Shown: one piece after another, positions 1,115 to 40,121 of the stretch
Position numbering within the stretch: the stretch's first letter is position 1
How the letters are laid out: each line of letters starts with the position of its first letter
Assembly (NCBI GenBank): GCA_009838195.1
Contig: VXSC01000032.1
Span: forward strand, 1-64,000
From: Rhodothermaceae bacterium
Lineage (GTDB): Bacteria > Bacteroidota > Rhodothermia > Rhodothermales > Bin80
DNA: 64,000 bases
Reading direction: 5' to 3'
Program-made: the position numbers and the translations under genes
Notes under the pieces: generated by a model
The model's database searches: none
What the model was told of the DNA's origin: nothing
Seen by the model: the letters and a program-made list of their open reading frames with translations, nothing else

Positions 1115-1896
1115 TGTCATCGGGCCTTACCACGACGACTTCGAACTCCCGTCACCCGAATGGGATTTCCAGCCATTTCAACCCAGTCAGCTCGGATTCG
1201 AGTCCACCGGCAGGGAGGGCAGATCGTGCAGTCCCCATAGAACTTACGTGACTTCTTGCCTATCACGAAGCACACCTAATTCTAATAAGCCGAACAAAGT
1301 CTCTTCAGTTACGAATTCATATATGAAGCAGATCTCTCCCACTCGATTCGATCCAAGTCACTGATCCAGAATTTAGTAACTTCTTTGCCGGCTCTCCGTA
1401 AAGGAACACTGGTTACAACCGATTTACTTACCCGGCCGATTTCTCGGCAGTCAAGTGCCCAAGGGAGACCTGGACGAAATCAACCTAAACACAGATACGA
1501 TTGACTGGCGACTCCACTTAGGGGATTAACTGAGTTGACGGCCTGAGGCATTTCGCAGACCGAGATGGAATATCATGGTGGCGAGGTAATTGCTCCAGAT
1601 GGCCTGATTTTTGTTGGAAGAGATGGTAGAAAGATGGGACAAGATTCGGGGCGTGTGTCTGACATTGGGTTTGCCTGAGTGACGCAGCTCGAGTCGGTTG
1701 GCTGCTGAGTGAGACAGAAGAAAAAAAACGAGCCTTGGGGACCCAAACCCCCAAGGCTCTCACCACTAAACCTAATGGTCAAAGATAGTGCATCGAGACA
1801 TACTTTGAATACAAAAGACGCACGCCAACGACAAATCTTCATCGTTGAACATTCAATCCCGCCTCAATTCACCTGCAAGATCCCGAGGGTTGTGGC
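1115..1896. other. Gene-free stretch of about 780 bp
   Basis: No convincing coding region is seen. Short open frames exist on both strands, but none has a recognisable domain or ribosome binding site, and those near 1518-1900 run through the strong terminator hairpin at 1720-1759. No tRNA cloverleaf was recognised. The stretch separates the GC-rich SDR gene from the minus-strand DUF1080 gene and may be the scar of an insertion. Confidence 0.6.
1720..1759 (-). terminator. Rho-independent terminator, minus strand
   Basis: A perfect 11-bp stem (1730-1740 pairing with 1749-1759, arm GAGCCTTGGGG) encloses an 8-nt loop and is followed, read on the minus strand, by eight T residues (1729-1722, opposite the A-run). 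This is a textbook intrinsic terminator. It lies about 140 bp after the stop of the DUF1080 gene and should end the minus-strand transcript coming from the MFS and DUF1080 genes. Confidence 0.92.
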
Positions 1897-2613
1897 CTAA
1901 GATGCAGACAAGCGACGGATTCGAATATTCCGGAACCACACCGGATCACTGTGATCCTGCAGACAGATATGCCCCACCTTCGTCATTCCATAGTCGGGCA
2001 TGTCAATCCATTTGCTCTCAGCAATAGAGGCCTTCCAGGCATCACTCCACAGCTCATAGGAGACGATCTTTTCACCGTTGAGCCAATGCTCAACCTTTGC
2101 TCCATCAACAACAATACGAGCTTGATTCCACTCTCCGACCGGATTGACTACATCCGCTGATGGGGCATGCATATCATAGTTTGCTCCCGCGTGACGATCT
2201 GCGCCCTCCTTGGCGTCGGGGTGTGCGTCATTATCCAGAATCTGATATTCCGGACCGGTACGCCAAGGGTAATCATGTGCCTCAGATACCCTGAACATGA
2301 TACCACTGTTGCCCGCAGGGGAAATTTTCCACTCCAGTTTCAACTCGAAATTCTCATACTGCTCTAACGTGATAATATCACCACCTTCTCCCTCACCCGA
2401 AAAATGTAGTGCCCCATCTTCACTGACCTGCCACGCCTCGGGAATCCCTTCGCCCCCATAACGTCGCCACTGATCAGCACCAAGCTCCTGCCAGGAAGTG
2501 TCTGCCGTAACGGCTTCATCAGCTACTTCTACCGAAGCTTGTGCCGAAGTAGAATGCGTTACCAAAAAAAGTGCACCGGTCATTGCGCCAGCTACAATTA
2601 ATCGCGTCATCAT
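1897..2613 (-). CDS. DUF1080 (3-keto-disaccharide hydrolase-like) exported protein
   Basis: A 238-residue exported protein. A signal peptide (MMTRLIVAGAMTGALFLVTHSTSAQA) is followed by one DUF1080 concanavalin-like sandwich: the SGEGEGGDIIT, FELKLEWKIS, GNSGIMFRV, GPEYQILDN and NPVGEWNQARIVV blocks are typical. DUF1080 proteins include 3-keto-disaccharide hydrolases and are very frequent in planctomycetes and Bacteroidota; the glycoside substrate here is unknown. The open frame extends upstream to 2793, but that part lies inside the MFS gene, so I start at the ATG at 2613 (2610 is equally possible). It follows the MFS gene by 28 bp, so the two are probably co-transcribed and end at the terminator near 1720. 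Confidence 0.85.
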   Translation of the reverse strand: MMTRLIVAGAMTGALFLVTHSTSAQASVEVADEAVTADTSWQELGADQWRRYGGEGIPEAWQVSEDGALHFSGEGEGGDIITLEQYENFELKLEWKISPAGNSGIMFRVSEAHDYPWRTGPEYQILDNDAHPDAKEGADRHAGANYDMHAPSADVVNPVGEWNQARIVVDGAKVEHWLNGEKIVSYELWSDAWKASIAESKWIDMPDYGMTKVGHICLQDHSDPVWFRNIRIRRLSAS

Positions 2614-2641
2614 TGTAATCGAGGGTTTGTGAAAGAATAAG

Positions 2642-3892
2642 CTATTCAGTTTGCACTTCGGCAGATTTATCGTAATCCGCAACTTTGTCATCGAATAGCA
2701 GAACGAAGGCCAAGGAGAACACGAACGTTGCAACCGCAAAGATTGTCCAGAATGTACCCCAACCAGCGATATCAAGCTGTCCGTTGTCTCCAAACGTATT
2801 TACGTAGGCACCACTTAATTGAGTTCCCAAGAAAAACCCAATTCCCTGGGTAAGGAGAACGAGCAGCCCCTGCACTTGACCGCGGACTTCGGGGGCGGTT
2901 TTCTTATCAATGTAAATCTGCCCGGTGACGAAAAAGAAATCGTAGCAGATCCCGTGAATCAGAATTCCAATCATGATAAACCAGTACATCCCCACACTGC
3001 CCCCTAATGCGAAGATTGCAAAGCGGGCAACCCAAGCCAGCATGCCAAGAAGAAGCATCCACTTCACTCCCAGGCGGCGGAAGAAAAATGGAATCATGAG
3101 CATAAAGAAAATCTCGCTCACCTGCCCCCATGCCATCTCCCCACTAGGGTTGGCAAAGAGATTTGTGCCCGTAAAGACCTCCGTATTAACTTGAGAAAAA
3201 TACAGTGGTGCGTAAGGGAAATATGTTCCGAACGCAATGAATATGAGCATTGCTGCCGCAAGGAAGACCACAAAGGACTTGCTCTTTAGTGCATTAAATG
3301 CATCAATACCAGCGATCTGCTTCCAGGAGGTGGATTGCCCTCTTGACGGTGGTGGTGTGTAAGGAAGTGTAAAACTATATAGTCCAAGAAAGAGCGCGGC
3401 GCCTCCTCCGATATAAAGCGGAGTCGGAGAAGCATCTGCCTGGAGGACATATCCCATAAATAATCCAATGGCAGCCCAGCCAATCGTTCCAAAAACACGA
3501 ACCACCGGAAATTCCTTTTCCTGATTCTTTAAATGATGAAAGGCCAGCGAGGCTGTAAGTCCAAGGGTTGGGAAGTAGCAGAGTGCATGTAACCCCAAGA
3601 GTGGAAGGAAGAGATTCGTCCCGGCAGCCGATGGCATCATGCACATGGCGGCACCAGCAATCAGCATGAGTACGCCCAAAAGCTTTTCCGAATCAAAGAA
3701 GCGGTCCGCCACCATCCCGAGGAAAAATGGCCCAATAATGCAGGCAATCGGCCCAAGAGCATAGGCTAATTGAATCCAGTCTCCAATCCCCTCCGCACTC
3801 ATATAATTGCCCAAGGTAGGTGCCCAAGCTCCCCAAATAAAGTACTGGACAAACATCATTACGCTAAGGCGTGCAACAAGTCCTACATTCAT
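2642..3892 (-). CDS. MFS transporter, nucleoside:H+ symporter type
   Basis: A membrane transporter of 416 residues with about 12 hydrophobic segments. The N-terminal run VMMFVQYFIWGAWAPTLGNYM and the overall layout match the nucleoside:H+ symporter branch of the major facilitator superfamily, which in Bacteroidota and planctomycetes often sits beside DUF1080 and sugar isomerase genes. The natural substrate is therefore uncertain: a nucleoside or a (keto)sugar. The start at 3892 is preceded by a good Shine-Dalgarno sequence (AGGAG, 7-8 nt upstream); the longer frame to 3982 has no such site. It is followed by the DUF1080 gene with a 28-bp gap, and the pair may import and hydrolyse an oxidised glycoside. 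Confidence 0.85.
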   Translation of the reverse strand: MNVGLVARLSVMMFVQYFIWGAWAPTLGNYMSAEGIGDWIQLAYALGPIACIIGPFFLGMVADRFFDSEKLLGVLMLIAGAAMCMMPSAAGTNLFLPLLGLHALCYFPTLGLTASLAFHHLKNQEKEFPVVRVFGTIGWAAIGLFMGYVLQADASPTPLYIGGGAALFLGLYSFTLPYTPPPSRGQSTSWKQIAGIDAFNALKSKSFVVFLAAAMLIFIAFGTYFPYAPLYFSQVNTEVFTGTNLFANPSGEMAWGQVSEIFFMLMIPFFFRRLGVKWMLLLGMLAWVARFAIFALGGSVGMYWFIMIGILIHGICYDFFFVTGQIYIDKKTAPEVRGQVQGLLVLLTQGIGFFLGTQLSGAYVNTFGDNGQLDIAGWGTFWTIFAVATFVFSLAFVLLFDDKVADYDKSAEVQTE

Positions 3893-4028
3893 CTCAAATC
3901 TCCTGTTGATTGACGGATAAAAGAAACGCCGCAGGATCGGTAATCGTACGGCGTCCGAAATACACAGAAACAACCATCCCAATTACGGGATACTGATTCG
4001 ATCCGTGCTAATATAATCAAGATTTCAA

Positions 4029-5885
4029 TTAATTCTGAGCCTCAATAAATTCTTCCACACGACTGACGATGACTTCCGGTTCAGTTCCATCCGCCTCTGA
4101 CTGATCAATCTCAGCGCGGAGAGCAGCGATCTCGTCAGCACTTGCCCCATCATTCCTCTCCAATTGGTCTACATGCGCACGCGCGAGTGCAAATGAAGGA
4201 GGCCATTCATAGGTCGGCTGTTTTTGCGCATTCAAATATTCAAGCTGCACCGTATTTGCCGCCGCAATCTCGTTCTCCGTGAGAAAACCACTCGGAACAA
4301 GCTCGAAAACATCGAGACCACGGGCAATCTCACTATTGTAAATGTATCCGTTATACCAGTAGACAGACCAGCTTCCGCCCATCTGCATTTGATCTGCAGA
4401 TACGGGACCACGGTCATGGTAGGCAATCTCAATCACATTGGCAGGGTCTGTCCAGTCCGTGATAGAAATCCCACCCTGATACCAGGACTGCACAAAAATA
4501 TCCCGCCCTGGGACAGGAATTAGTGATCCATTGTGTGCAACACAGTTCTCCTGCTCCGTCTGGGGCACGGGAAGCTTATAATAGCTCTGGAAATGCATCT
4601 TGTTCTCTTCATCAATCGTGAAATAGGCATTTGCGCCCCATTCCATCGGATCGGTCTCACGGCATTTGGGGCCTCCACCACCACCCCACTCATCGGTGAA
4701 GAGGATTTTTGAACCATCATTGCTGAAGGTTGCCGAGTGCCAGTACGAAAAATTGCTGTCTGCGACGGCATCCAGTCGGAATGGATTCTCTGGATCAGAA
4801 ATATCAAGAAGAATACCATAGCCTTCACAGGCGCCGCCAGCTAAACCGATTTCTGGATACAGTGTGATATCGTGGCACTGATCTGGACCACGATCCTGAT
4901 CATCTCCACTTCCCATCATGGCAGCGATCATGTCTGGAAGAGCTTCGCGAAATGCCATGGTGTCTGCCGCGGTTGGCTCGGTAATTCCCTCCTCCTCAAA
5001 ATATGAACCACTCATTGCGACGACATACCGTTCCGGGAGAATCATCGTGCGTGAGCCCATTTCGACAACAATCTCCCCACGTGCCCTGGCTTCTTCAAAC
5101 TGGGCTTTTTCAGCCTCTGTTGGCCCATGCACAGGCGGAGCAGTCAGGTCTTCGAAAATTCGTGGAGAACTGACGATCGCTGCCTGAGTCGGATCAGACA
5201 GTGGCACTTTGATGACTTCAATGCGGAAGAGTGCGGATTCGGGATCTTCACTCGGAGACATCCCGGAACATCCAGGTAATTCATCTGCCGGGCGGACGGG
5301 AGCGGATCCAGATACATACACGTAAACATTCTCATCATCACCAGGGTCCTTGAGCAGTGAGTGGGTATGAGATCCCCGACAGGTCTGGACATTATGGACA
5401 TACTGTGGATCCAGTACATCCGTGATATCAAAGATTCGAATCCCTCTCAGACGATCCGGACTCACGCTTTCCTCTACGCCCTGGTCTCCGCAGTCAAGCC
5501 GTCCGCCTAGCCCTTCACCCGAAACAAATAGTAGGTTTTCATAGACAGACACATCACTCTGAGATGCAGGACATACATATTCTTTTGCAAGGATGGGAGT
5601 ACTTGGATCAGACACATCCCATATCTGAATACCATTATAGTTGCCCTGGAAAACATAATTCCCTTTGAAGGCAAGGTCACTGTTGGTTACACCAATGAAA
5701 TTTTCAGAGGGCGGAACAGTCGCAACCATGTTTAAATTCCAAATTGCCTCTTCCGCATCAAACAACCCCGCCTCAAGGCCAATGCGTGGATCATCAAGAA
5801 CCATAGCCTGCTGGGCAAAGCTGATGTCTAACCGAAACAGGATCACAGTCAGGACCATGGTGGTAAGGAGGGTACAAGTTCTCAT
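4029..5885 (-). CDS. LVIVD-repeat beta-propeller exported protein
   Basis: A 618-residue exported protein. After a signal peptide (residues 1-24, ending SFAQ) come LVIVD-type blades such as GNYVFQGNYNGIQIWDVSDPSTP and LRGIRIFDITDVLDPQYV, with HTHSLLKD, WHSATFSNDG and CVAHNGSLIP strands later. This repeat family is predicted to form a beta-propeller; no enzymatic role is established. The C-terminal 80 residues are charged and helical. It lies 20 bp after the DUF305 gene. This DUF305-LVIVD pairing suggests a shared extracytoplasmic role, perhaps with metals, but that is inference. Confidence 0.8.
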   Translation of the reverse strand: MRTCTLLTTMVLTVILFRLDISFAQQAMVLDDPRIGLEAGLFDAEEAIWNLNMVATVPPSENFIGVTNSDLAFKGNYVFQGNYNGIQIWDVSDPSTPILAKEYVCPASQSDVSVYENLLFVSGEGLGGRLDCGDQGVEESVSPDRLRGIRIFDITDVLDPQYVHNVQTCRGSHTHSLLKDPGDDENVYVYVSGSAPVRPADELPGCSGMSPSEDPESALFRIEVIKVPLSDPTQAAIVSSPRIFEDLTAPPVHGPTEAEKAQFEEARARGEIVVEMGSRTMILPERYVVAMSGSYFEEEGITEPTAADTMAFREALPDMIAAMMGSGDDQDRGPDQCHDITLYPEIGLAGGACEGYGILLDISDPENPFRLDAVADSNFSYWHSATFSNDGSKILFTDEWGGGGGPKCRETDPMEWGANAYFTIDEENKMHFQSYYKLPVPQTEQENCVAHNGSLIPVPGRDIFVQSWYQGGISITDWTDPANVIEIAYHDRGPVSADQMQMGGSWSVYWYNGYIYNSEIARGLDVFELVPSGFLTENEIAAANTVQLEYLNAQKQPTYEWPPSFALARAHVDQLERNDGASADEIAALRAEIDQSEADGTEPEVIVSRVEEFIEAQN

Positions 5886-5905
5886 TTGTCTTTCAAGTTT
5901 GTGTT

Positions 5906-6559
5906 TCAGTGTGCAACTCCAAGATCATCCAGCATCAGTTTCATGCGATTAATCTCCGTAATCTGATCAACGTGGATTTCTGAAGCTAATTTATAGGTGT
6001 CATCACCGGTGATGGCCCCATCTATTTTGAACAATTCTCTAACCATGTGGACAGCTCCCTCATGGTGCATAATCATGTATTCCAGGAACAACCGGTCAAA
6101 ATCTACACCTTGGGCGGCTTCAAGCTCTTTCAGTTGCGCGTCGGTAAGCATTCCCGGCATATGTGTGTCGTGATGATCCGCGCCATGAATCATCAGAGAA
6201 TTTCCCTCGATCATGATATGAGGAACCACCTGATCCCGCTTACGCAGCCACTCCTGCATGATTCGGATTTCATCATTCTGAGCATTAATAATCCGGGCAG
6301 CCAAAACCTGAATTGTTGGACTAGCCCCATTGGGCTCTGCAAATGATGACATGACAAGAGCCTGTGCATGGTGTGCAATCATGCCCGTCATAAAATCTAC
6401 ATCCGCCTGGGAAAAACGTGCAAGTGCGCTATCCTTGCGAGCCCAAAAAAGTGCTTCCAATTCCTCAGAATCCTGAGCAATGGATGGTACTACTACACAC
6501 AGACCGAGGAAAAGGGGAAATCCGAACCGAAGCGATAACAACAACTGTTTTCCTTGCAT
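5906..6559 (-). CDS. DUF305 domain protein, exported, His/Met-rich
   Basis: A 217-residue exported protein with a signal peptide (hydrophobic residues 7-28, ending SIAQ). The DUF305 four-helix (ferritin-like) pattern is clear: ADVDFMTGMIAHHAQALVMS, the NAQNDEIRIMQEWL helix, the HDTHMPGML loop and FLEYMIMHHEGAVHMV. The paired HH motifs and many Met residues suggest copper or other metal binding, as proposed for the family, but no residue set proves it. It is followed 20 bp later by the LVIVD gene and preceded 58 bp upstream by the large beta-barrel gene. Confidence 0.88.
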   Translation of the reverse strand: MQGKQLLLSLRFGFPLFLGLCVVVPSIAQDSEELEALFWARKDSALARFSQADVDFMTGMIAHHAQALVMSSFAEPNGASPTIQVLAARIINAQNDEIRIMQEWLRKRDQVVPHIMIEGNSLMIHGADHHDTHMPGMLTDAQLKELEAAQGVDFDRLFLEYMIMHHEGAVHMVRELFKIDGAITGDDTYKLASEIHVDQITEINRMKLMLDDLGVAH

Positions 6560-13483: not shown

Positions 13484-13546
13484 AATAAAATGCGCTTTGA
13501 TAACGACGTAAAAGCCGTTATTCGTTTCTGGTATGGTCCTAATCAA

Positions 13547-13933
13547 GTTACACTAAAAATTGCTGTAATTGTGCCATTTCCTCGAAAGCAATGCCCTTGC
13601 ACGAATGGGTTCAGTTGAATTTTGCTTCGAAATATTGCTTAGTGGACGCACTTTACCGACAATTGATCATAAACATGCATTGCCCCATGAAATCCTTCCA
13701 GAAAACCGTTCATGTTGTTACCCGAGAGTTGCGGTGCATTTTGGAGAATATGGCTGGGCTCACCTTCCCGCAGAAAAAGCTACTGCAGAGGGAGAGACGA
13801 AACCTAGCCTCCGTTCGATATTTCTATGAGCAAGAGTCTATCATAGACGTACAAGAGACCGACTGAGAGGAGACCATGTCGCCAGGTTGGGACGAAAAGT
13901 TCACCAAGGCATACGCCGCAAGAAGTATTTGAT
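13547..13933. other. Divergent upstream region of HU and ppc genes
   Basis: This 387-bp stretch should hold the promoters of the minus-strand HU unit and the plus-strand ppc gene. A plus-strand open frame 13591-13866 (91 codons) has no recognisable domain and no Shine-Dalgarno site, so I do not call it. A short 18-codon frame with a strong ribosome binding site lies just before ppc and is listed separately. No promoter boxes could be assigned with confidence. Confidence 0.5.
13876..13932 (+). CDS. Possible 18-codon leader peptide before ppc
   Basis: An ATG at 13876 follows the purine-rich GAGAGGAGA by two bases and opens an 18-codon frame ending in TGA at 13930-13932, one base before the ppc ATG at 13934. 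The two frames differ, so translation of this peptide would deliver ribosomes to ppc, which itself has only a weak AAGAAG site. It may be a leader that couples or tunes ppc translation. The peptide has no run of a single amino acid that would indicate classical attenuation. Chance cannot be excluded. Confidence 0.35.
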   Translation: MSPGWDEKFTKAYAARSI

Positions 13934-16684
13934 ATGAATTCTTGGCAGGGATTAAGCTTTGAAGCACACGGTACGGGAATTTCTGTACCTCTGAGCGAAC
14001 AGATCAATCTTTTGGGTGGCCTACTCGGCCGTGTAATTGAAGCTCAGGCCAGCCCTGAAGTACTGGGTTTGGTTGAGGAATTACGTCAGTTGACCAAACA
14101 GGCAATCACGCAGCAGGAACCCCATCTGCGAGATCAGGTGATTGAGCGAATCAAGGGGTTGGATCTTCAGGAAATTGAGTGGCTGTTACGTGCCTTTACA
14201 ACATTCTTCTATCTAGTCAATCAGAGTGAACAGCAAGAGATTATTCGGATCAATCGAGAGCGTGCACGCCTGCTTCCCGAGGCGGGTCGTGTAGATTCAA
14301 TTGATGAAGCAGTTGGGATTCTTCGGCGTGCAGGTTATGAGTTGGAAGATGTCTTAAAGATTGTCTCCCGCCTTGATATACAACCGACACTAACAGCACA
14401 TCCCACAGAAGCACGCCGTCGAACCATTTTATACAAACAAGAATTTCTGGCCTCCCTCATTGATCAACTGCGCTATAGTAAGCCAACCCCGGGAGAGCGT
14501 GACGAACTTCTTTATCAAGTCCATAACCAAATTGGACTCTTGATTGCATCCGATAAAGTCCGTGCAAGTAAGCCTACCGTGATTGACGAAGTTGAGAATG
14601 GACTCCATTACCTGCGGAACGCCATCTGGGAAACGATCCCACGCATCCATAAAGATGTAGCCGACGCAATTGAGCGCCATTACAATCAGACCGTGGATGT
14701 GCCCGTGTTCCTGAAATTCAGATCTTGGATTGGAGGAGATCGGGACGGTAATCCCAACGTAACCGCAGAGATTACCCGGAAAACCTTCTCCATGCACCGT
14801 AGAACAGCATTGGCCCGCTATTTAGAGGATTTACGTTCGTTGCGCAGGGATCTGAGTATTTCCGAACTGCAGTTAAAAATCCCTGAGACCCTTTACGAGT
14901 CCATAGCACGTGATAAGGAGGTGCTAAGTCTGAGTGCTCATGAGGCGCGCCAATTTGTGCAGGAACCCTTCCGACAGAAAATCAGCTTCATGATGCAACG
15001 CATTGAGTTGGCGCGGGATGGGGATTATGAGATCTATAACAGTGCGAATTTTATTGCAGATCTGCAATTACTTGTACATGCCCTGGAAGACATGGGGTAT
15101 GAAAGTCTGGTCTCTCATGGACGATTGGGGAAACTCATCCTGCGTGCACAGGCGTTTGGATTTCACATGGTTTCCCTAGATATACGGCAACACAGTCGTC
15201 ATCATGACAATGCCGTACATGCATTGCTCAGGGTTTCGAATGTCTGTGATGACTATTTGGGTTTGGCGGAAGAGGACAAGCTGGCGCTCTTGACAAAAGA
15301 ATTACAAAATCCTCGACCTCTTTTACCACATGGTGTCAAATTAGAGGAAGATGTCCAGGAGGTACTCAACACGTTTTCCGTGGTTAAGGAGACGGTTGAA
15401 TGGTCTCCTAACGCCTTGGGTAGCTATGTGATCAGCATGACGCATGCCGTGAGCCATGTGTTGGAGGTTCTATTGCTCGCAAAGGAGGCTGGGCTTTGGC
15501 GTATTGAGGGGAATCGCGTGCACTCTCCTATTGATGTTGTTCCTCTGTTTGAAACCATTGAGGATTTGGATCTTGCCGGGGTCTTGTTGACCAATATGTT
15601 TGAGCACCCGGCATACAAGAAGCACCTTGAGCATCGTGACAATATGCAAGAGGTAATGCTTGGCTATTCCGACAGCAACAAGGACGGCGGGTATTGGATG
15701 GCTAACTGGGCCTTGCACAAGGCAAAGAGGCATATTGGTAAGATCTGTAAGGATGCTGGCATCGACCTCCGACTCTTTCATGGCCGTGGTGGAACGGTCG
15801 GCCGCGGCGGAGGACGTGCTGGTCAGGCAATTATTGCGATGCCCCGCATCATCCATAACGGCCGGATCCGATTTACCGAACAGGGTGAGGTGATTTCATT
15901 CAGGTACGCCCTTCCCGCAATCGCACACCGACATTTAGAGCAGATTGTACGGGCGATGATGATTGCTCCGCTGCGTGTAGCCGATGTAGAGGAAGATGCG
16001 ATAATTATGGAGCGTATTGCAGATGTGTCCATGAAAACTTACCGGGAACTGATTGACGATCCAGAATTCTGGCCGTGGTATGCCTCCTCAACCCCAATTG
16101 AACAGATCAGTCGTCTTCCGATTGCATCCCGTCCGGTTTCTCGTGGCTCGGTACATCATGTAGATTTTGACGACTTGCGTGCGATCCCTTGGGTCTTTGC
16201 CTGGACTCAGACCCGCTATATCGTCCCAGGATGGTATGGAGCTGGTGAGGGGCTTCAGAAGTTACTGAAAGATCACGGTTCGGACCTCAAGCGGATGTAC
16301 AAGCAATGGCCATTCTTCCAGGCAGTCCTCAACAGTGCCCAACGCGAGATGGCACGAGCGCGATTGGATGTTGCATCAGAGTATCTGACTCTCTCTTCTG
16401 ATCCAGAAGCAGGAAAACGGGTCAATTGCTGGATTGTCGAAGATTACAAAAAGGCAGAGGCAGCTATACTTGAGATTACCGGGTATGAGAGCCTGTATGG
16501 GCATGTACCTGTATTCAGGAAATCTGTCAAACTTCGTAACCCCTACTCTGATGTGTTGAACCTGCTTCAGGTTGAGCTAATCCGGCGGAGTCGCAACGAT
16601 TTAGAATCAGACCAAGAACGGTTGATTCATGCATTGCTCCTCAGCGTGAACGGGATTGCAGCTGCAATGCAGAGTACCGGGTAA
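13934..16684 (+). CDS. ppc: Phosphoenolpyruvate carboxylase
   Basis: A 916-residue cytosolic enzyme that makes oxaloacetate from PEP and bicarbonate, refilling the TCA cycle. The catalytic signatures are complete: LTAHPTEARRRT with His156, FRSWIGGDRDGNPNVT, MLGYSDSNKDGGYW, FHGRGGTVGRGGG and the C-terminal PWVFAWTQTRYIVPGWYGAG. The chain ends in ...QSTG, close to the family's usual C-terminal Asn/Ser-Thr-Gly. The loop after the glycine-rich motif reads GRGGGRAGQAI rather than the more common GRGGGPTH or GRGGAPAH, a variant of the flexible region near the active site. About 20 residues precede the first family-like block, so the true start could lie a little downstream. Confidence 0.97.
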   Translation: MNSWQGLSFEAHGTGISVPLSEQINLLGGLLGRVIEAQASPEVLGLVEELRQLTKQAITQQEPHLRDQVIERIKGLDLQEIEWLLRAFTTFFYLVNQSEQQEIIRINRERARLLPEAGRVDSIDEAVGILRRAGYELEDVLKIVSRLDIQPTLTAHPTEARRRTILYKQEFLASLIDQLRYSKPTPGERDELLYQVHNQIGLLIASDKVRASKPTVIDEVENGLHYLRNAIWETIPRIHKDVADAIERHYNQTVDVPVFLKFRSWIGGDRDGNPNVTAEITRKTFSMHRRTALARYLEDLRSLRRDLSISELQLKIPETLYESIARDKEVLSLSAHEARQFVQEPFRQKISFMMQRIELARDGDYEIYNSANFIADLQLLVHALEDMGYESLVSHGRLGKLILRAQAFGFHMVSLDIRQHSRHHDNAVHALLRVSNVCDDYLGLAEEDKLALLTKELQNPRPLLPHGVKLEEDVQEVLNTFSVVKETVEWSPNALGSYVISMTHAVSHVLEVLLLAKEAGLWRIEGNRVHSPIDVVPLFETIEDLDLAGVLLTNMFEHPAYKKHLEHRDNMQEVMLGYSDSNKDGGYWMANWALHKAKRHIGKICKDAGIDLRLFHGRGGTVGRGGGRAGQAIIAMPRIIHNGRIRFTEQGEVISFRYALPAIAHRHLEQIVRAMMIAPLRVADVEEDAIIMERIADVSMKTYRELIDDPEFWPWYASSTPIEQISRLPIASRPVSRGSVHHVDFDDLRAIPWVFAWTQTRYIVPGWYGAGEGLQKLLKDHGSDLKRMYKQWPFFQAVLNSAQREMARARLDVASEYLTLSSDPEAGKRVNCWIVEDYKKAEAAILEITGYESLYGHVPVFRKSVKLRNPYSDVLNLLQVELIRRSRNDLESDQERLIHALLLSVNGIAAAMQSTG

Positions 16685-31304: not shown

Positions 31305-32981
31305 TTAGTTCTCAGCGACCTTGTTATCAAGCTCTTCGAACGTAAAGCGAACGCTCATAATGTAAGGGGACTCGTTTTTTGTCCAGTGACCATACGTAGT
31401 AGTAACCACGGTCCCGTCGGGAAGTATCTCAACTCCCGGATAGGCAGTATCAGCCCCCTCGTGGTTGTCCATAAGTCGTACACGATACTGTCCTTCCTGA
31501 CCATGCACGATATCCTCATACGTACCAACCCATCCGACCCAGTCGCCCCATGTGGGTGAAACATGTGTACGGTCACGAAATGAAATAAATAGTCGACCAT
31601 CCGGGCCGTAGATGGCCTGATGTCTGTCACCGGTGAGAGCGCCTGTGACTTCCATTGGTGTACTCCATGTTGCGCCTTCATCATCCGAGAACGTTACGAA
31701 GCTGTTGAACTGACGGCTATTCTCTCTCAGTAACATGGCGATTTGTTGGCCGTCGGGGGACCGAATGACACCTGGTTCGCACAGATCAGCCACGGGATGC
31801 GTAACGACAACTTCGGGCTGACTCCAAGTTAGCCCGCCATCGGACGATACGGTCTTGTACACATAAAATTGTCCCCGCTCTTCCTCTCGTCCATTGATAA
31901 ACCTTCCATCGTCGTGAAAAAATGCCATATAGCGGCCATCTCGCAATCGAATTACATCTCCCATAGCTACGATTCCACCAAAATCTCCAATGGGATCTAA
32001 TGGGCTCCAAGTGTTTCCTTCGTCCTCGGAAACAGCCATACGGATGGGATACAACCCGGAAAACATGATTAAGCGCTTTGTCCCATCACGATCAATTACC
32101 GGATAGAGTGTTGGGACCTCCTGTGAGGTTGACCAGTTGTCCGGCACGGGGAGGCGGTCACTCCAAGTGAGCCCGCTGTCGTGACTTTTCTTCATCACAA
32201 CTGCACCGCGTCCGTGTCCCTTTGGATATACGGTGATGATTGTATGCTGGTCATCCAGCAGCACAGTGGTTGGATGGCCGAGGTACTGGTTTGACTCTCG
32301 ATCTACTAATACTTGTCGGTGAGTATCTTCGGCAAGGTCAACGAGCGGGATACTGAATCCCCCGGGCCTGTTTGTACCACTTGGGTGGAAAACGCCCGTG
32401 GTGACAAATTCCCGGATGTGGAGTTCACCTTTTGCCAAAGGCGCTACACGGCCAAGCGAGGAAAATGTGAACCCAAACCGCCCGATACCTGCAAAGCTAC
32501 CCACTGAATGAATCAACTGATCATCAATCAGAAACCGGATTACACCATCTGTTCGGATAGCTTCAAAAGTAAACCATTCTCCGGGTTCAAGATGGGGGCG
32601 GGCATCACCAAGAACTACATGATGCCAGCCTGCTAAAGCACCAGACAGGTATAGCTGTTGATTGGGGCCATCAAACCCGAGATAACTCTCTCCCAACTGG
32701 AATGCTGCGCCCGTAGCGTTTAGCTCGGGAAGGCTGAGCTGTGCTGTTATCTGGAAATCCCCCGTCGCAAGGTCACGATCGGCGAACAGCCCTGCTTCAT
32801 CTGACGTGCCTGATACAATTGCGATGTACCCATTCTGCTCAACCCATGTACCCAGACTGCCCATTTTCACGACACCGTTCTGGGTGACGGTAATAGTTTC
32901 TTGTGCCAGGGCCGCGAATGTCAATAGTAATGTGCCCAAGAGAATACACACGAGTTGATTGATTAATATGAGGCGTCGCAT
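31305..32981 (-). CDS. Exported sialidase (BNR repeat family)
   Basis: A 558-residue exported glycosidase. A signal peptide (MRRLILINQLVCILLGTLLL, cleavage near LAQ) leads to a concanavalin-like domain (about residues 25-200, PNQQLYLSG, SVGSFAGIGRFGFT) and then a six-bladed sialidase propeller. Four Asp-boxes are visible: SHDSGLTW, SEDEGNTW, SSDGGLTW and SDDEGATW. It probably removes terminal sialic acid from glycoconjugates outside the cell. I start at the ATG at 32981, just before the signal peptide; the ATG at 33029 is also possible and would overlap the lyase gene end. It is third in the unit symporter fusion, lyase, sialidase. Confidence 0.87.
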   Translation of the reverse strand: MRRLILINQLVCILLGTLLLTFAALAQETITVTQNGVVKMGSLGTWVEQNGYIAIVSGTSDEAGLFADRDLATGDFQITAQLSLPELNATGAAFQLGESYLGFDGPNQQLYLSGALAGWHHVVLGDARPHLEPGEWFTFEAIRTDGVIRFLIDDQLIHSVGSFAGIGRFGFTFSSLGRVAPLAKGELHIREFVTTGVFHPSGTNRPGGFSIPLVDLAEDTHRQVLVDRESNQYLGHPTTVLLDDQHTIITVYPKGHGRGAVVMKKSHDSGLTWSDRLPVPDNWSTSQEVPTLYPVIDRDGTKRLIMFSGLYPIRMAVSEDEGNTWSPLDPIGDFGGIVAMGDVIRLRDGRYMAFFHDDGRFINGREEERGQFYVYKTVSSDGGLTWSQPEVVVTHPVADLCEPGVIRSPDGQQIAMLLRENSRQFNSFVTFSDDEGATWSTPMEVTGALTGDRHQAIYGPDGRLFISFRDRTHVSPTWGDWVGWVGTYEDIVHGQEGQYRVRLMDNHEGADTAYPGVEILPDGTVVTTTYGHWTKNESPYIMSVRFTFEELDNKVAEN

Positions 32982-33018
32982 AGGTAATGAGAAGGGTGCT
33001 TTAAAAGTGGGACAATTT

Positions 33019-33954
33019 TCAGTCGGCATGTTTTCGAGCCCATTCAAAAAATCCGATTTCTTCCAGTGCTTTGCGCATTTCTGAAATTTGGGCCGGTGTA
33101 GCGGTGGAATGGGGCAATCTGTGGGGGCCACAATCTTGGCCGATCAGACCCATAACAGCTTTGAATCCTGCACGTCCACAGGTTTTCAGAATTACTTTTA
33201 TCATCGTAGATGCCCTCGCCTGATGGCGCCGGGCCTCTTCTATCCGTCCCTGTTCGCAGCAGGTAATAAGACGGTTATAGAGTGGTGTAGCAAAATTATA
33301 TGTCGTACCCACTGCTCCGCGCATGCCTGTCATCCATGCACCGAGAAGCATCTCATCGACGCCACATACAAAGTCATACCTTTCGGCATAAGGACACGCT
33401 GAGACTTCGTGCAGACGTGTATCTGAAAATTTTACACCAACGAGCGAATCCAATCGCGACACTGACAAACTCAGGAAATCATTCAGATCCAGCTCTACCC
33501 CCGTCTTTCCGGAGATATGGTAGTAGTAGAATGGGAGATCCGGTGCACCTGCAGCAATCACAGCCAGACAGTCCACCAGTGATCTTGTCGATTCAGGCTT
33601 GAAATAATAAGGGGGCGTGGCCGAAATAGCACTGGCTCCAATCTGTTGGGCATGCCTGGCGAGGGTTTGTGCTTCCTGTAGACTGTTATGTCCGACATGG
33701 ACCACCACAGGTACACGGCCGGCAACAGCCTGCATAAATTTTACTGCAGTATGCTGCCGCTCGCGGAGTGTCAGTGAGACCCCTTCCCCCGTACTACCCA
33801 ATACATATAATGCAGAGACACCATCTCTTAGTAGATGTTCGACTAAGTCTGGGATACGGTCAAGATCCACTAGAGCATCATCTTTCATGGGTGTGAACGC
33901 TGCCGCGGTAAGACCTCTCAGCCGGATTGATTTATCGATTGGCGCCTGCATCAT
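33019..33954 (-). CDS. nanA: N-acetylneuraminate lyase
   Basis: A 311-residue (beta/alpha)8 aldolase of the DapA family. AAAFTPMKDD, YVLGSTGEGVSLTLRER, PFYYYHISGKTGVELDL and VGVKFSDTRL are the key blocks; Lys in VGVKFSD forms the Schiff base and Tyr in YYYHI is the catalytic Tyr. GSTGEG instead of DapA's GTTGES, together with the YYHI motif, favours sialic acid lyase over dihydrodipicolinate synthase. It cleaves sialic acid to N-acetylmannosamine and pyruvate in the cytosol. It overlaps the symporter gene by 4 bp and precedes the sialidase gene. Confidence 0.88.
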   Translation of the reverse strand: MMQAPIDKSIRLRGLTAAAFTPMKDDALVDLDRIPDLVEHLLRDGVSALYVLGSTGEGVSLTLRERQHTAVKFMQAVAGRVPVVVHVGHNSLQEAQTLARHAQQIGASAISATPPYYFKPESTRSLVDCLAVIAAGAPDLPFYYYHISGKTGVELDLNDFLSLSVSRLDSLVGVKFSDTRLHEVSACPYAERYDFVCGVDEMLLGAWMTGMRGAVGTTYNFATPLYNRLITCCEQGRIEEARRHQARASTMIKVILKTCGRAGFKAVMGLIGQDCGPHRLPHSTATPAQISEMRKALEEIGFFEWARKHAD

Positions 33955-36530
33955 TCCGATTCTTGTTTCGGCAACCCGCTTTCCAAAGTATAGATTGTTA
34001 ACCCGCTAAGCTGTATGTGACGGCTGGGAAGAATGTTACTCATGATGTATCCTACGACAAAGCAGGTCAATATGCCAATACTTGCATAAAGGAAGAAATG
34101 AATGGCTGTGAAAGCACTTACTAAGTAGAGTACGATTGCACTGGTACAGGCGCCAATCAGTGCCCCAGTACCATGTGCACGGCGCGTAAAAATACCCAGA
34201 GCAAAGAGACCTGCCAGGCTGCTCCCCAATAATCCCAATAATTCAAGGAAAAAGTCGAACAATGAAGCAATTTCGATTGTAGCCATTAGTAAACCAATGG
34301 TGGTAGCTAGAAAGCCTAATCCAACAGTCAGCCATTTGGCCAATCGCAGACGGATTGACGCAGTGGAACGCGGCTTAAATCTTTTGTAAAAGTCGCATAC
34401 CAGTGCGGCAACGGCGCTATTGAGACTACTGTCAAGGCTGGACATGGCTGCGGCAAAAATCCCGGCAATCAGGAGGCCTGATATACCTTGGGGTAACTGC
34501 TGTATGATAAACAGCGGGAAGATTGCATCGGTTGATAGCGAAGGCTCCAGAGCGCTTGCGTGCTGTTGGTAGAACACAAACAAGGCTGTCCCCAAGCAGA
34601 AAAAAAGCAAGCTACCGGGGATAGTGAGTACTGCATTAGTCCAGACAGATCGTGCAGCAAGTTTTTCATTTGCCGTGGTTAGGTAGCGTTGAACTACCGT
34701 TTGATCCGCTGTATAGGGGATCAAGTTGCTGAAAATTGAACCTCCCAGCACCACCCAGACTGCCGTAGTCGTCGCATCCCACGACCAGGTCAGAATATGA
34801 AATTTGTTCTGAGCGGTGGCAACTTCTATCAATCCAGGAGCCCCACCCTCAATGTTCGAGACCAAGACAATGAGGCTCAAAAAAGCGCCGCCTAAGAGTA
34901 CAATTACCTGCATTACATCTGACCAAATAACGGCTTCCATGCCTCCCAATGCTGTATAGAAGGTGCTCAGTAGTCCCATTAGTAATATGGCCAAGTAAAG
35001 ATTGAAGCCTGTAACTGCGGATAAGGCTATTGCAGGGAGAAAGATCACTACTCCCATACGTCCGAGCTGGAGGAGAACGAATGCAAGGCTACCGAAAAGT
35101 CGAACTGCTACATTAAAACGTCGCTCTAAAAATTCATAGGCCGTCGTTATCTGGAGTCGGCGGAAGAAGGGTAGATAAAGATAGACTACTATCGGGGCAA
35201 CCAGCAGGATGGCAATCTGCCCAAGAAAGTACACCCAATCCGTAGCGTAAGCCTTGGCGGGGATGGCCATGAAGGTGATGGCACTCAGCTGTGTTCCGAA
35301 GATGCTGATTCCTGCTGCCCACCACGGGATACGTCTACGAGCTAGAAAGTAATCAGTATCACTTTTTCCACGGTTCCAGAAGTACAGACCCATTCCTGCA
35401 AGGACCAGGAAATAGACAACCACGACAACGTAATTTATTGTGCCGAACGGGGCGACTGTATTTCTGGGTGTGACCTTCCAAACCGCGGCAGTTCGTACTC
35501 CCGGGCGTGTTTCACCACTTGAGATGAAAATATTATCGCCTTGTTGCACTGTTGGGACAGTGACCTGCCCCATGGGCAAAGTTCCCAGCTGCGCCCAGGT
35601 GTCCGTGATGACGTGATAGGCCAGCACGTTACGGCTGAATCCAGGGTGTTGGTTGCCGAGCTCTTGAACGCGATCTACATCTACTCCAGTATTACCTCCC
35701 AATACTAGAAGGTGTGAGGGGCCCAAAGTGATTGCAGGAGAAGGGGCCGCAGCTGTAGGATACGGTAGATCGTGCAGTTGCTCCCATCCATGTTGAGGGT
35801 CATACCGATAGGCATCGGTGAGAAACTCGTAAGCCACTGAGTCAGACAAATTTGGCTTCAACGCGGTACCACTGAAGAGATAGAATTCCCCGTCTAAGGC
35901 ACCCGACACAGCACTATGTCGAGATGGACCAGGCAAAGATTCGAGTATTTGCCATTGCGCATCAGGATCAGCAAGATCCAATGCCCAGAAATCCTTGCTC
36001 GCGACGGTATCGTTGGGGGTCTCCAGTCCTCCGGCTATGTAAAGGATATTTCCAGCTACGGCCCCGCTAGCAAATGCTCTGGGTTGTGGAAGTGCTGGCA
36101 ACAATCGCTGGGAGATGCTCTCGCCGTCCCAGCGCAGCGCAACCACCTCCACAAAATGCTCCAGGGCATTTCCCCCGCCTGCACAGATTACTTCATCTTC
36201 CCATTGGGCTGCTACTGCATAGCCCGTCGGCCTGGTAAGTGTGAATCCGCTTTTCCACTCACTGAAGGAGGAGGTCAGAACGTAGAGGCTGTCAGTCCAG
36301 ATCTTCTCCCCACCCTGCAGATACGGGTCCCGAAAATGTGCACCTCCGGCCACGACCAGTGCTCCATTTGAGATTCCTGCGCATGGACCACCTACTCCAA
36401 TTGGATCCGGGAGATCAGGCAACCGATACCAATCAAACAATTCTCCGGTTCGCACGTCCTGGCCTTGCAGCGCAGCAACTTGAAATAGTAGGATAAATAG
36501 GAGAAGGACTCGCTTGGCCAGTTTTATCAT
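33951..36530 (-). CDS. Fusion of cyclically permuted mutarotase (Kelch) and sodium:solute symporter
   Basis: An 859-residue two-part protein. After a signal peptide (residues 1-23, ending ALQGQ) come about 330 residues of Kelch-type propeller (DPIGVGGPCAGISNGALVVAGG, EVICAGGG, LYIAGG, FYLFSG, HLLVLGG), matching the cyclically permuted mutarotase family related to NanM. From about residue 361 there are roughly 13 membrane segments of the sodium:solute symporter family, with FFLARRRIPWW-like and TALGGMEAVIWSDVMQVIVL blocks. The propeller should lie in the periplasm, converting the anomer of sialic acid where the symporter takes it up. The operon with nanA and sialidase supports this; the substrate itself is inferred. 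Confidence 0.9.
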   Translation of the reverse strand: MIKLAKRVLLLFILLFQVAALQGQDVRTGELFDWYRLPDLPDPIGVGGPCAGISNGALVVAGGAHFRDPYLQGGEKIWTDSLYVLTSSFSEWKSGFTLTRPTGYAVAAQWEDEVICAGGGNALEHFVEVVALRWDGESISQRLLPALPQPRAFASGAVAGNILYIAGGLETPNDTVASKDFWALDLADPDAQWQILESLPGPSRHSAVSGALDGEFYLFSGTALKPNLSDSVAYEFLTDAYRYDPQHGWEQLHDLPYPTAAAPSPAITLGPSHLLVLGGNTGVDVDRVQELGNQHPGFSRNVLAYHVITDTWAQLGTLPMGQVTVPTVQQGDNIFISSGETRPGVRTAAVWKVTPRNTVAPFGTINYVVVVVYFLVLAGMGLYFWNRGKSDTDYFLARRRIPWWAAGISIFGTQLSAITFMAIPAKAYATDWVYFLGQIAILLVAPIVVYLYLPFFRRLQITTAYEFLERRFNVAVRLFGSLAFVLLQLGRMGVVIFLPAIALSAVTGFNLYLAILLMGLLSTFYTALGGMEAVIWSDVMQVIVLLGGAFLSLIVLVSNIEGGAPGLIEVATAQNKFHILTWSWDATTTAVWVVLGGSIFSNLIPYTADQTVVQRYLTTANEKLAARSVWTNAVLTIPGSLLFFCLGTALFVFYQQHASALEPSLSTDAIFPLFIIQQLPQGISGLLIAGIFAAAMSSLDSSLNSAVAALVCDFYKRFKPRSTASIRLRLAKWLTVGLGFLATTIGLLMATIEIASLFDFFLELLGLLGSSLAGLFALGIFTRRAHGTGALIGACTSAIVLYLVSAFTAIHFFLYASIGILTCFVVGYIMSNILPSRHIQLSGLTIYTLESGLPKQESE

Positions 36531-36719: not shown

Positions 36720-39700
36720 CTACCGTACGATAGTCATGGCTTTTGATCGCTCAACCAATTCTCCATCCATGTCTACTCTTAGTGTGTAATAATAGACTCC
36801 CGACATTAAGCCCCCTGTACTGATTTCCAAACTATGCCCATGGCCTGCGCCAAACTCACCATAGGGCACACTCTTGACAATTCTACCTAATACATCAGTT
36901 ACGATAACTGAAATTTGTGCTGGCACTGGCAAATCAAATTCTATCCTTGTTGTCTCCGAAAACGGATTCGGATAATTCCCCCATAGGGTCAATGACATGG
37001 GCTGCTCTAATTCTTCAATATTCACTCCCAGATTGTCTGCAATCGTGATCACTACCTCCTGCGTGATTCCGTCGTAACCGCCCCCAGATCCAGTAATTGT
37101 GAGCGTCACTTTATCATTTACATTATCTTCATCTCCAACTGTGCTCAGCGTAACTGTCTGAGCAGTGGACCAGTCGTCAACCCCAAAGGTCAAAATAGTC
37201 GGAGAAGGTATCAGGTCCGTGTTTTCATGTCCACTCAATGTCATCGTTACCTCATTGGATGGCTTAGCCTTCAGCGCAACCTCGAATGCTATCGAGTCTC
37301 CCTCCACAACCGATAACCGTGTTGGTGCCGAAATCGCTGCTACATCAATCCAGCGGTCATTCCTGAGTTGGAGCGTACGCTTTGCATTTTCTACAAGTTC
37401 ATTTTGATTCTCACCATAGACCATAGCAAAATCCACTACAACTTCTGAATTTACATCAACTGAGTAAGGGCCAGAACCTATTAACTGTGCATCTCCAGCT
37501 CCACTTCCCGTTCGTGATGGGCTGATGATCCCTCCCGTCAGTCCCTCCCAGACATCTTCCGGTTGATTCAAGTCCCCAATCTCATTGGAGTCATAAGTTC
37601 TGTAATGTATTCGGGCATTTTCGGATAGTACAGCGAATCCCACATAGCCACTCCTTGAATTGTGTTCCTGATCTAGATTCACATTAGGGAAAAATCTTTC
37701 AATATTCCCATCTTGATATCTGGCCATACTATATTCACCAGTACCAAATGAATCAAAATACAGTCCAATGAGCAAATCCTTGATTGCCGTACTGGTCTGG
37801 TTACGTATTGTATATCGAAAAAGCACTCCATCTTCGAATTGACTCTGCGTATTCACAAGTGATTCCTGAATAATTTCTAGGCCTGGGGGAAGCTTGTTTG
37901 TCTTGTTCGTCATCGTCACACGGCTTACTTGCTCCCCGCTCCCATCCTCCAGAAATTGCATTGAACTAACAGGCACAAAATCTTGGCTCTGAGGGCATCT
38001 CATAAACTGACACTCAGGTACGTTGAACACAGAACCTGCAACCGTTCTGGGAGCTATCCCAACCAGTAATCCTGCCTCATCCATCAACCCATCTCCTTTC
38101 AAGTCCATTTGCCCCAGTGTTTCTTCGCAATGCCAGTGCGCCCAAACTTCCCCCGTATCCGTATGGCCAATATTCCCCTCCGAGGTCATGGTATAGCTGA
38201 ACGTGGCCGTTTCATGCAATGCCAATTCTACAGGATTAACGTATAACTCAATCGCATCTGATCCACTCACAACCCCTCCATCTGATATACGGATACGGGG
38301 CTCAATAAACAAAAATGACCGGTAGGGGAAATTTGGCGTTGCCATGACGGAGAAATCTATGGATGTTTTCGCGCCACTCGGCAGCGATCCAACACTGAAC
38401 GTATTTCCACTCGGAAAGACGATACCAGGAGATTTGGCAACAAACTCTACCGTAACGTTCTCTGCATCGGCCAAGAACGACTCAAATGTTGCAGTTATGT
38501 TTATCTGTTCTGATGGGCGAAAGCAATAACCTTTCTCACGGTCAGTCACTTCCCACTCCACCATTCGGATGGACACTTTATCTGTCTCCGTTACGGCGCG
38601 ATAGGCATTCACATACCCCCGTCCCAGTAGTCCTTCATATGAAGGGGGATGCTCCTGATATATTTTCTCATCCGCAGTTACTCGAATCTGCTCACGTATT
38701 TGCACCGGTGAAAACTCAGGAAACTGTGTCTTCACCAGTGCTGCGATTCCAGATACCAGAGGAGCCGCAAACGATGTGCCCCACCAAAACCGATACTGAT
38801 TATTCAAATCCGTGGTCATAACTCGAACCCCAGCCGCGCAAACATCAACACCATATCCATAATTCCACGCATTCTGATAGGACTGGCCTTCTGTACCACA
38901 AACACTTAGAGTTTCCTGATACGATGCGGGATAGCTCCGAGGATTATACCCGCCCATTTCAAAGTCATTGTTCGATGCCGAAGCGATCACAAGACTCCCG
39001 AGGTCGAGAGCTGCCCGCATAGTAAGAGCATCAGTTCTAAGGGGACCATAATTGAGTCGGCCATAGCTGGCATTGATAATATGTGCCCCGTTAATCGCAG
39101 CGTACAAAACCCCTTCCCAAGTGTAGCAAAACCGACGGCTATTCGGTCCACACGCCACGTCAATGGGCATAAATTTTGTATTCCAACTGGTTCCAGCCAA
39201 GCCTATACCATTGTCTGCTACAGCAACTGCTGCACCTGCAACAGCAGTCCCGTGGTTATTGCCCTCCAGAGGTCTGGAATTATTCGTATCATCTGAAAAA
39301 CTCCATCCGTGCAGATCATCTATAAATCCATTTCTATCGTCATCTATTCCGTTATTTGCAATTTCTCCGGGGTTCTCCCACAAATTTGCCCGCAGGTCAT
39401 GATGCTCCCAATCTGTACCGGAGTCCACGATTGCAATCACGACATCCGAATCTTCTCCCTTCACGACCTCCCATGCCTTTGTCATTTCCATCATTTGCAT
39501 ATATCCTTCGTTCGAAAACAAAGGATCATTCGGCATAGGTGGGGATTGCTTTCTCACTCCCCCGATTGGAACTGGAAATGCAGACACGGAATGGCGATAC
39601 TGTGGCTCAGCGTACACAACTCCCGGGTTGGCCTCAATTATCCTAGCAGCGTGGTTCGGAGATATCTCCGCATCGTACCGAACACGGTACACTCGTTCTA

Positions 39701-39944
39701 ATTCTTGAACACTCGCCAGTTGTGCTCGCTTGCCCCTCAACGTATTCAGAAACGGAAATGCCCGCTCCACTGATTGTACTTGTAGTACCGGTGGATAGGC
39801 AGCTTTTCCCAGATATGCGCCCTGTTGGTACTGAACGATAACTATCCCCAGTTTAATATTCTGCTCTGCCTGACGCGACTGAGATAGACTCGGTGCCACA
39901 AAACACACTACGAACAGTAGACATGTGGCAAGCCACTTCCACAT
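36720..39944 (-). CDS. Secreted S8 (subtilisin-like) protease with T9SS C-terminal sorting domain
   Basis: A 1074-residue secreted serine protease. The signal peptide (MWKWLATCLLFVVCFV...) is followed by an inhibitor-like prodomain (ERVYRVRYDAEISP, about residues 80-110) and a peptidase S8 domain with catalytic Asp174 (IVDSGTDW), His231 (NNHGTAVAG) and Ser391 (WGTSFAAP). Then come beta-rich regions, a Calx-beta-like segment (VVEGDSIAFEVALKAKPSNEV) and a C-terminal sorting domain with NYPNPFSETTRIEFDLP and SGVYYYTLR. The last domain is the por-type secretion signal, so it should be exported by the type IX system. I start at the ATG at 39944, before the signal peptide; the frame reaches 40046. 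Confidence 0.93.
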   Translation of the reverse strand: MWKWLATCLLFVVCFVAPSLSQSRQAEQNIKLGIVIVQYQQGAYLGKAAYPPVLQVQSVERAFPFLNTLRGKRAQLASVQELERVYRVRYDAEISPNHAARIIEANPGVVYAEPQYRHSVSAFPVPIGGVRKQSPPMPNDPLFSNEGYMQMMEMTKAWEVVKGEDSDVVIAIVDSGTDWEHHDLRANLWENPGEIANNGIDDDRNGFIDDLHGWSFSDDTNNSRPLEGNNHGTAVAGAAVAVADNGIGLAGTSWNTKFMPIDVACGPNSRRFCYTWEGVLYAAINGAHIINASYGRLNYGPLRTDALTMRAALDLGSLVIASASNNDFEMGGYNPRSYPASYQETLSVCGTEGQSYQNAWNYGYGVDVCAAGVRVMTTDLNNQYRFWWGTSFAAPLVSGIAALVKTQFPEFSPVQIREQIRVTADEKIYQEHPPSYEGLLGRGYVNAYRAVTETDKVSIRMVEWEVTDREKGYCFRPSEQINITATFESFLADAENVTVEFVAKSPGIVFPSGNTFSVGSLPSGAKTSIDFSVMATPNFPYRSFLFIEPRIRISDGGVVSGSDAIELYVNPVELALHETATFSYTMTSEGNIGHTDTGEVWAHWHCEETLGQMDLKGDGLMDEAGLLVGIAPRTVAGSVFNVPECQFMRCPQSQDFVPVSSMQFLEDGSGEQVSRVTMTNKTNKLPPGLEIIQESLVNTQSQFEDGVLFRYTIRNQTSTAIKDLLIGLYFDSFGTGEYSMARYQDGNIERFFPNVNLDQEHNSRSGYVGFAVLSENARIHYRTYDSNEIGDLNQPEDVWEGLTGGIISPSRTGSGAGDAQLIGSGPYSVDVNSEVVVDFAMVYGENQNELVENAKRTLQLRNDRWIDVAAISAPTRLSVVEGDSIAFEVALKAKPSNEVTMTLSGHENTDLIPSPTILTFGVDDWSTAQTVTLSTVGDEDNVNDKVTLTITGSGGGYDGITQEVVITIADNLGVNIEELEQPMSLTLWGNYPNPFSETTRIEFDLPVPAQISVIVTDVLGRIVKSVPYGEFGAGHGHSLEISTGGLMSGVYYYTLRVDMDGELVERSKAMTIVR

Positions 39945-40121
39945 TGGCTCACTCACAGTCCAGATCGACGAGATTGATTGTCCTTGGGCGGCTCGGGACA
40001 AGACGGTTGTTATCAGAATCGGTGTTCGCCTGATATCTGTGTTCATATGTGGCTTTGAGATATAGGCTGCAACAATAACAGTTCTGCAAGAGGCTCACAC
40101 AATGAACAGAAATGACCGCAA

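Follow-up and report, generated by a model that had tools for sequence, protein, structure and literature searches.

The window analysed here, 64,000 nucleotides of contig VXSC01000032.1 from a Rhodothermaceae bacterium, carries a single gene that joins two known types of sialic acid protein, a NanM-type mutarotase propeller and a SiaT-type sodium symporter. The joining is real and well conserved. In our view the product is probably a protein for sialic acid uptake: its periplasmic part would be a sialic acid mutarotase, tethered to the sodium symporter in the same chain. The 859-residue open reading frame (33951..36530, minus strand) was found where the original prediction had placed it; it is read from the minus strand, which had been left unstated there, and the same interval on the plus strand is interrupted by many stops. 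A frameshift or misassembly as source of the fusion was rejected, as the same open frame recurs, at 35-90% identity, in a large number of independent genomes.

Profile searches (Pfam, NCBIfam) and PDB matches bore out the expected order of a signal peptide, a Kelch mutarotase domain and a complete symporter. The signal peptide (MIKLAKRVLLLFILLFQVAALQGQ, residues ~1-24; 36459..36530, minus strand) was recognised from sequence and hydropathy, its cleavage site being inferred by eye. The propeller follows (residues ~28-357; 35460..36449, minus strand) and ends about 10 residues before the first membrane helix of the SSS symporter domain (residues ~360-845; 33996..35453, minus strand). In the full-length protein, Pfam NANM (PF24996) reaches 121.6 bits, its cut-off being 45. 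The cyclically-permuted mutarotase model TIGR03548 aligns colinearly over residues 44-350 (E 7e-33) but, at 114.1 bits, remains below its curated cut-off of 243.2, as do the mutarotase models of NCBIfam generally. In the symporter part, SSF (PF00474) covers residues 394-794 (E 4e-43) and TIGR00813 matches above its cut-off. The signal peptide, together with the N-out topology expected of SiaT-type symporters, places the propeller on the periplasmic face.

The cyclic permutation of the propeller is evident from the alignment with E. coli NanM (YjhT, PDB 2uvk), where the N-terminal part of the domain corresponds to residues 225-327, the middle to 2-101 and the end to 166-222. An AlphaFold model of the full chain, computed from an alignment of the fusion with seven relatives, was usable for the propeller (pLDDT mostly 60-90 across residues 31-350, with a few weaker stretches) and not for the membrane part (mean pLDDT 50.8, with residues 356-859 below 50). 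The modelled propeller resembles Kelch domains and propellers (Z ~27, VIA-align), a result that we take as fold support only, 2uvk not being among the 50 matches listed. Near the propeller end, some 20 residues ahead of the first membrane helix, lies the motif GETRPGVRT (residues 339-347; 35490..35516, minus strand), which aligns with GEAKPGLRT of E. coli NanM so that E340 and R346 match E209 and R215 (mature numbering). These two NanM residues are reported to be catalytic (Severi et al. 2008). The propeller has thus kept the mutarotase active-site residues whose loss would have spoken against the predicted function, and it is a homologue of the NanM Kelch propeller judging from the Pfam match; mutarotase activity appears likely. 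E. coli NanM shares with the fusion the Kelch propeller, the GE..PG.RT motif and the periplasmic location, but is a separate soluble protein, reported to be a homodimer (PMC10017367), whereas the fusion propeller is permuted and joined to a membrane transporter. Members of the TIGR03548 family have the colinear order, without an SSS domain; a stand-alone permuted member from Pseudoalteromonas also carries its motif near the C-terminus and ends soon after it. That the motif marks the propeller end in both proteins suggests that the fusion could have arisen from a permuted nanM joined to siaT.

Among solved structures, the closest relative of the SSS domain is the sialic acid transporter SiaT of Proteus mirabilis (SSS, ST5; 5nv9), aligned over its full length with an E value of 6e-111. 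The Neu5Ac contacts S60, T63, Q82 and R135, whose mutation in SiaT abolishes transport (PMC5931594), are all kept, together with N247, R260 and the Na2 serines S342 and S343. At the Na3 site, D182 and S346 are kept and S345 is replaced by aspartate; the other changes are T58Q, F78Y and Q250P. SiaT itself has no propeller. With a complete SSS core, the assignment as sialic acid transporter is a good one on these residues, and Neu5Ac is the presumed substrate. The sugar bound in the SiaT site is beta-Neu5Ac, T58 contacts its anomeric hydroxyl, and a T58A change doubles uptake (PMC5931594). The fusion symporter presumably prefers the same anomer; with glutamine in place of T58, its preference may differ. 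Sensor kinases such as CbrA and MxtR/CrbS also join an SSS domain to another domain (PMC7918813), but there signalling domains come after the SSS part, whereas in the fusion an enzyme-like periplasmic domain precedes it.

As predicted, a gene for an N-acetylneuraminate lyase-like protein (nanA, 311 aa; 33019..33954, minus strand) directly follows the fusion gene, overlapping it by 4 bp. The product belongs to the DHDPS/NAL family, its best solved relatives are N-acetylneuraminate lyases and, although below NCBIfam cut-offs, it keeps Y137, the Schiff-base lysine K165, D191, E192 and GSTGE. A DapA identity was rejected, since the NAL signature is kept and DapA Arg138 is absent; a lysine occupies this column, which corresponds to L142 of E. 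coli NanA. The assignment as N-acetylneuraminate lyase is good, and the possibility that the operon pairs a symporter for another sugar with a different DapA-family aldolase found no support, both proteins resembling those for sialic acid.

The gene after the lyase, predicted to encode a sialidase, specifies a BNR/Asp-box protein that carries a signal peptide and an additional domain at its N-terminus (31305..33131, minus strand; GTG start at 33131, probable ATG start at 32981). The sialidase fold and superfamily stood, with four SxDxGxTW boxes in the sequence and BNR_2 above cut-off; the catalytic equipment did not. In an alignment with YRIP-containing sialidases from other fusion loci, the protein has YLGHP at the position of YRIP and VYPKGHGRG in place of the aspartate region, while keeping the columns of the tyrosine, the glutamate and one arginine. 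With the RIP arginine and the usual acid/base aspartate absent, its label as a sialidase is unproven and this identity is doubtful. An AmGH181-like inverting sialidase was not assigned either: the nearest PDB matches (8gn6, 8feb) are weak, and a tyrosine is kept where GH181 has glutamine (PMC10067855). The predicted structure is of no use (mean pLDDT 41.4). No RIP-type or canonical sialidase was found among the other BNR_2 matches of the source genome. Homologues of the BNR protein adjoin fusion genes at six other loci (L002, L003, L004, L005, L058 and L060), and these proteins are possibly an uncharacterised sialidase-like family. Upstream of the operon lies a gene for a large subtilase bearing a sorting tail for type IX secretion (36720-40046, minus strand).

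Elsewhere in the source genome are one AGE-like epimerase gene and two NagB genes. One of the latter (1387-3321 of locus L078, contig C19) encodes a 644-aa protein whose C-terminal part resembles a deacetylase and might stand in for NagA. No NagA scored above cut-off in this genome; such absence is weak evidence, as the same model misses nearly all the sampled relatives in the order.

The fusion was found in some 20 other genomes. Its closest named relatives are in Rhodothermaceae and Rhodothermales metagenome assemblies; homologues occur in the same genus (85-90% identity), in further families of its order and further classes of its phylum, and also in a Phycisphaerales planctomycete and in Pseudoalteromonas. 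Some of these loci are textbook sialic acid operons. At locus L057 the fusion gene is accompanied by genes for a TonB receptor, a NanU-type SusD (E 4e-93), a RIP-motif sialidase, a GDSL esterase, a GntR regulator, NanA and an AGE epimerase; in Pseudoalteromonas its neighbours are a RIP-motif sialidase, a TonB receptor, nagA and nanA. These two neighbourhoods are the strongest evidence that the fusion family handles sialic acid, and they strengthen the case for sialic acid as the substrate proposed originally. The source bacterium is related to marine-sponge symbionts, which are reported to be enriched for sialic acid use, class Rhodothermia being among the lineages that overlap with sialic acid degraders (PMC8163846). 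No paper on a mutarotase-SSS fusion was found in the literature searched; an earlier description is possible.

Among the 25 fusions examined, the E/R motif is kept in 18, including the window fusion and its closest relatives, and lost in seven (L076, L058, L060, L061, L066, Pseudoalteromonas and Sphingopyxis). Not all of the seven are necessarily sialic acid proteins, as the Sphingopyxis fusion has an unrelated neighbourhood and those of L061 and L066 have divergent binding sites. Furthermore, four SiaT relatives with no propeller group with fused proteins in a supported clade, and three of them have a nanA-like gene nearby; no mutarotase match was found in genomes G039, G048 and G054. The pattern implies either repeated loss or disabling of the propeller or repeated origin of the fusion, the sampling of stand-alone SiaT proteins being too thin to choose. 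It also indicates that the transporter can do without the propeller, which is an accessory. Conversion of the anomer at the mouth of the transporter, as the original prediction had it, does not hold as a general property of the architecture, given the fusions that have no catalytic residues. Purifying selection acts on both domains in the window lineage, with dN/dS of ~0.11-0.15 for the propeller and ~0.04-0.05 for the SSS domain.

The sequence of events that we favour would start with the release of alpha-Neu5Ac, or of a close nonulosonic acid, by retaining sialidases belonging to the bacterium itself, to its neighbours or to the host. Retaining sialidases are known to release the alpha anomer; NanM speeds its conversion and may relieve sialidase inhibition (PMC8141875, PMC10017367). 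The propeller would convert alpha-Neu5Ac to the beta anomer, the form bound by SiaT, and the SSS domain would import this anomer with Na+. The product of the overlapping nanA gene would then cleave the sugar to ManNAc and pyruvate, and the epimerase encoded elsewhere in the genome would carry catabolism onward. We counted against this reading the sub-cut-off scores of the NCBIfam mutarotase models, the T58Q change, the non-canonical BNR protein, the want of a NagA above cut-off, the lysine at the L142 column of NanA, the motif-less and propeller-less relatives and the small growth effect of nanM in E. coli. Direct channelling from propeller to symporter is speculative; local enrichment or co-expression would suffice to explain the fusion. 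The more elaborate proposal, that the propeller passes the beta anomer straight to the symporter and has changed, in several lineages, from an enzyme to a non-catalytic capture domain, a built-in substrate-binding module, strikes us as unlikely.

Both activities could also be present and yet independent of each other, the fusion fixing nothing beyond co-expression and stoichiometry. Such an arrangement, compatible with the two activities of the tethered-mutarotase reading, is rather unlikely. In its favour, relatives nested among the fusions do without the propeller, and mutarotation proceeds faster on its own at alkaline pH (PMC8141875), as in seawater. On the other hand, the linker measures only ~10 residues, and the fusion has persisted in several Bacteroidota families as well as in a planctomycete and a gammaproteobacterium. 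The propeller might instead be mainly a non-catalytic tethered domain for capture or gating, concentrating sialic acid at the symporter much as a substrate-binding protein would, with mutarotase chemistry an ancestral and dispensable trait. This would account for the propeller staying fused in the seven motif-less proteins and for its faster evolution relative to the SSS domain. It would also fit the arrangement in Pseudoalteromonas, where a separate gene of the mutarotase family, with a GE..RS motif (GEVKAVQRS), adjoins the cluster of the motif-less fusion on the opposite strand. The full motif in the window fusion, its closest relatives and the majority of fusions, and the source genome, in which a search found the fusion as the only mutarotase-type gene, make this explanation quite improbable.

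Finally, the same architecture might serve another substrate, for example Kdn or some derivative of sialic acid, freed by the unusual BNR protein. Cleavage of Kdn yields mannose and does not call for NagA. This route would therefore dispense with the enzyme that has no clear candidate in the source genome; the T58Q and Q250P changes in the symporter and the L142K change in NanA could be read in the same way, as could the non-canonical BNR protein, which also accompanies the related fusions of G011 and G013, where the propeller motif is absent and no nanA adjoins. Nevertheless, the core Neu5Ac contacts (R135, S60, T63, Q82, N247) and NanA D191/E192 are kept, an AGE-type epimerase is present, and the fusions of G012 and G026, relatives of that in the window, do have an adjacent nanA. 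We regard such a different substrate as highly improbable.

The component parts of the fusion, NanM-type and SiaT-type, are already familiar. The idea that periplasmic mutarotases act as servants of transporters has so far been based largely on E. coli NanM, where the effect is small, nanM mutants showing a reduction in growth rate of at most 20% (PMC3658417). A natural fusion whose relatives include active-motif, dead-motif and propeller-less forms offers a direct genetic and biochemical test of the link between mutarotase and transporter. It is likewise a clean system for asking if covalent coupling speeds uptake, and opens a way into sialic acid use by bacteria associated with sponges.

Two further variants were observed among the homologues. 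The fusion homologue at locus L005 (5968-8526) is missing about 21 residues, which make up most of the first membrane helix, and is otherwise intact. Locus L069 of genome G157 contains two divergent fusion paralogues within 13 kb (3550-6141 and 13507-16218); one of them has changes in the substrate and sodium sites (T63G, D182H) and perhaps has another specificity.
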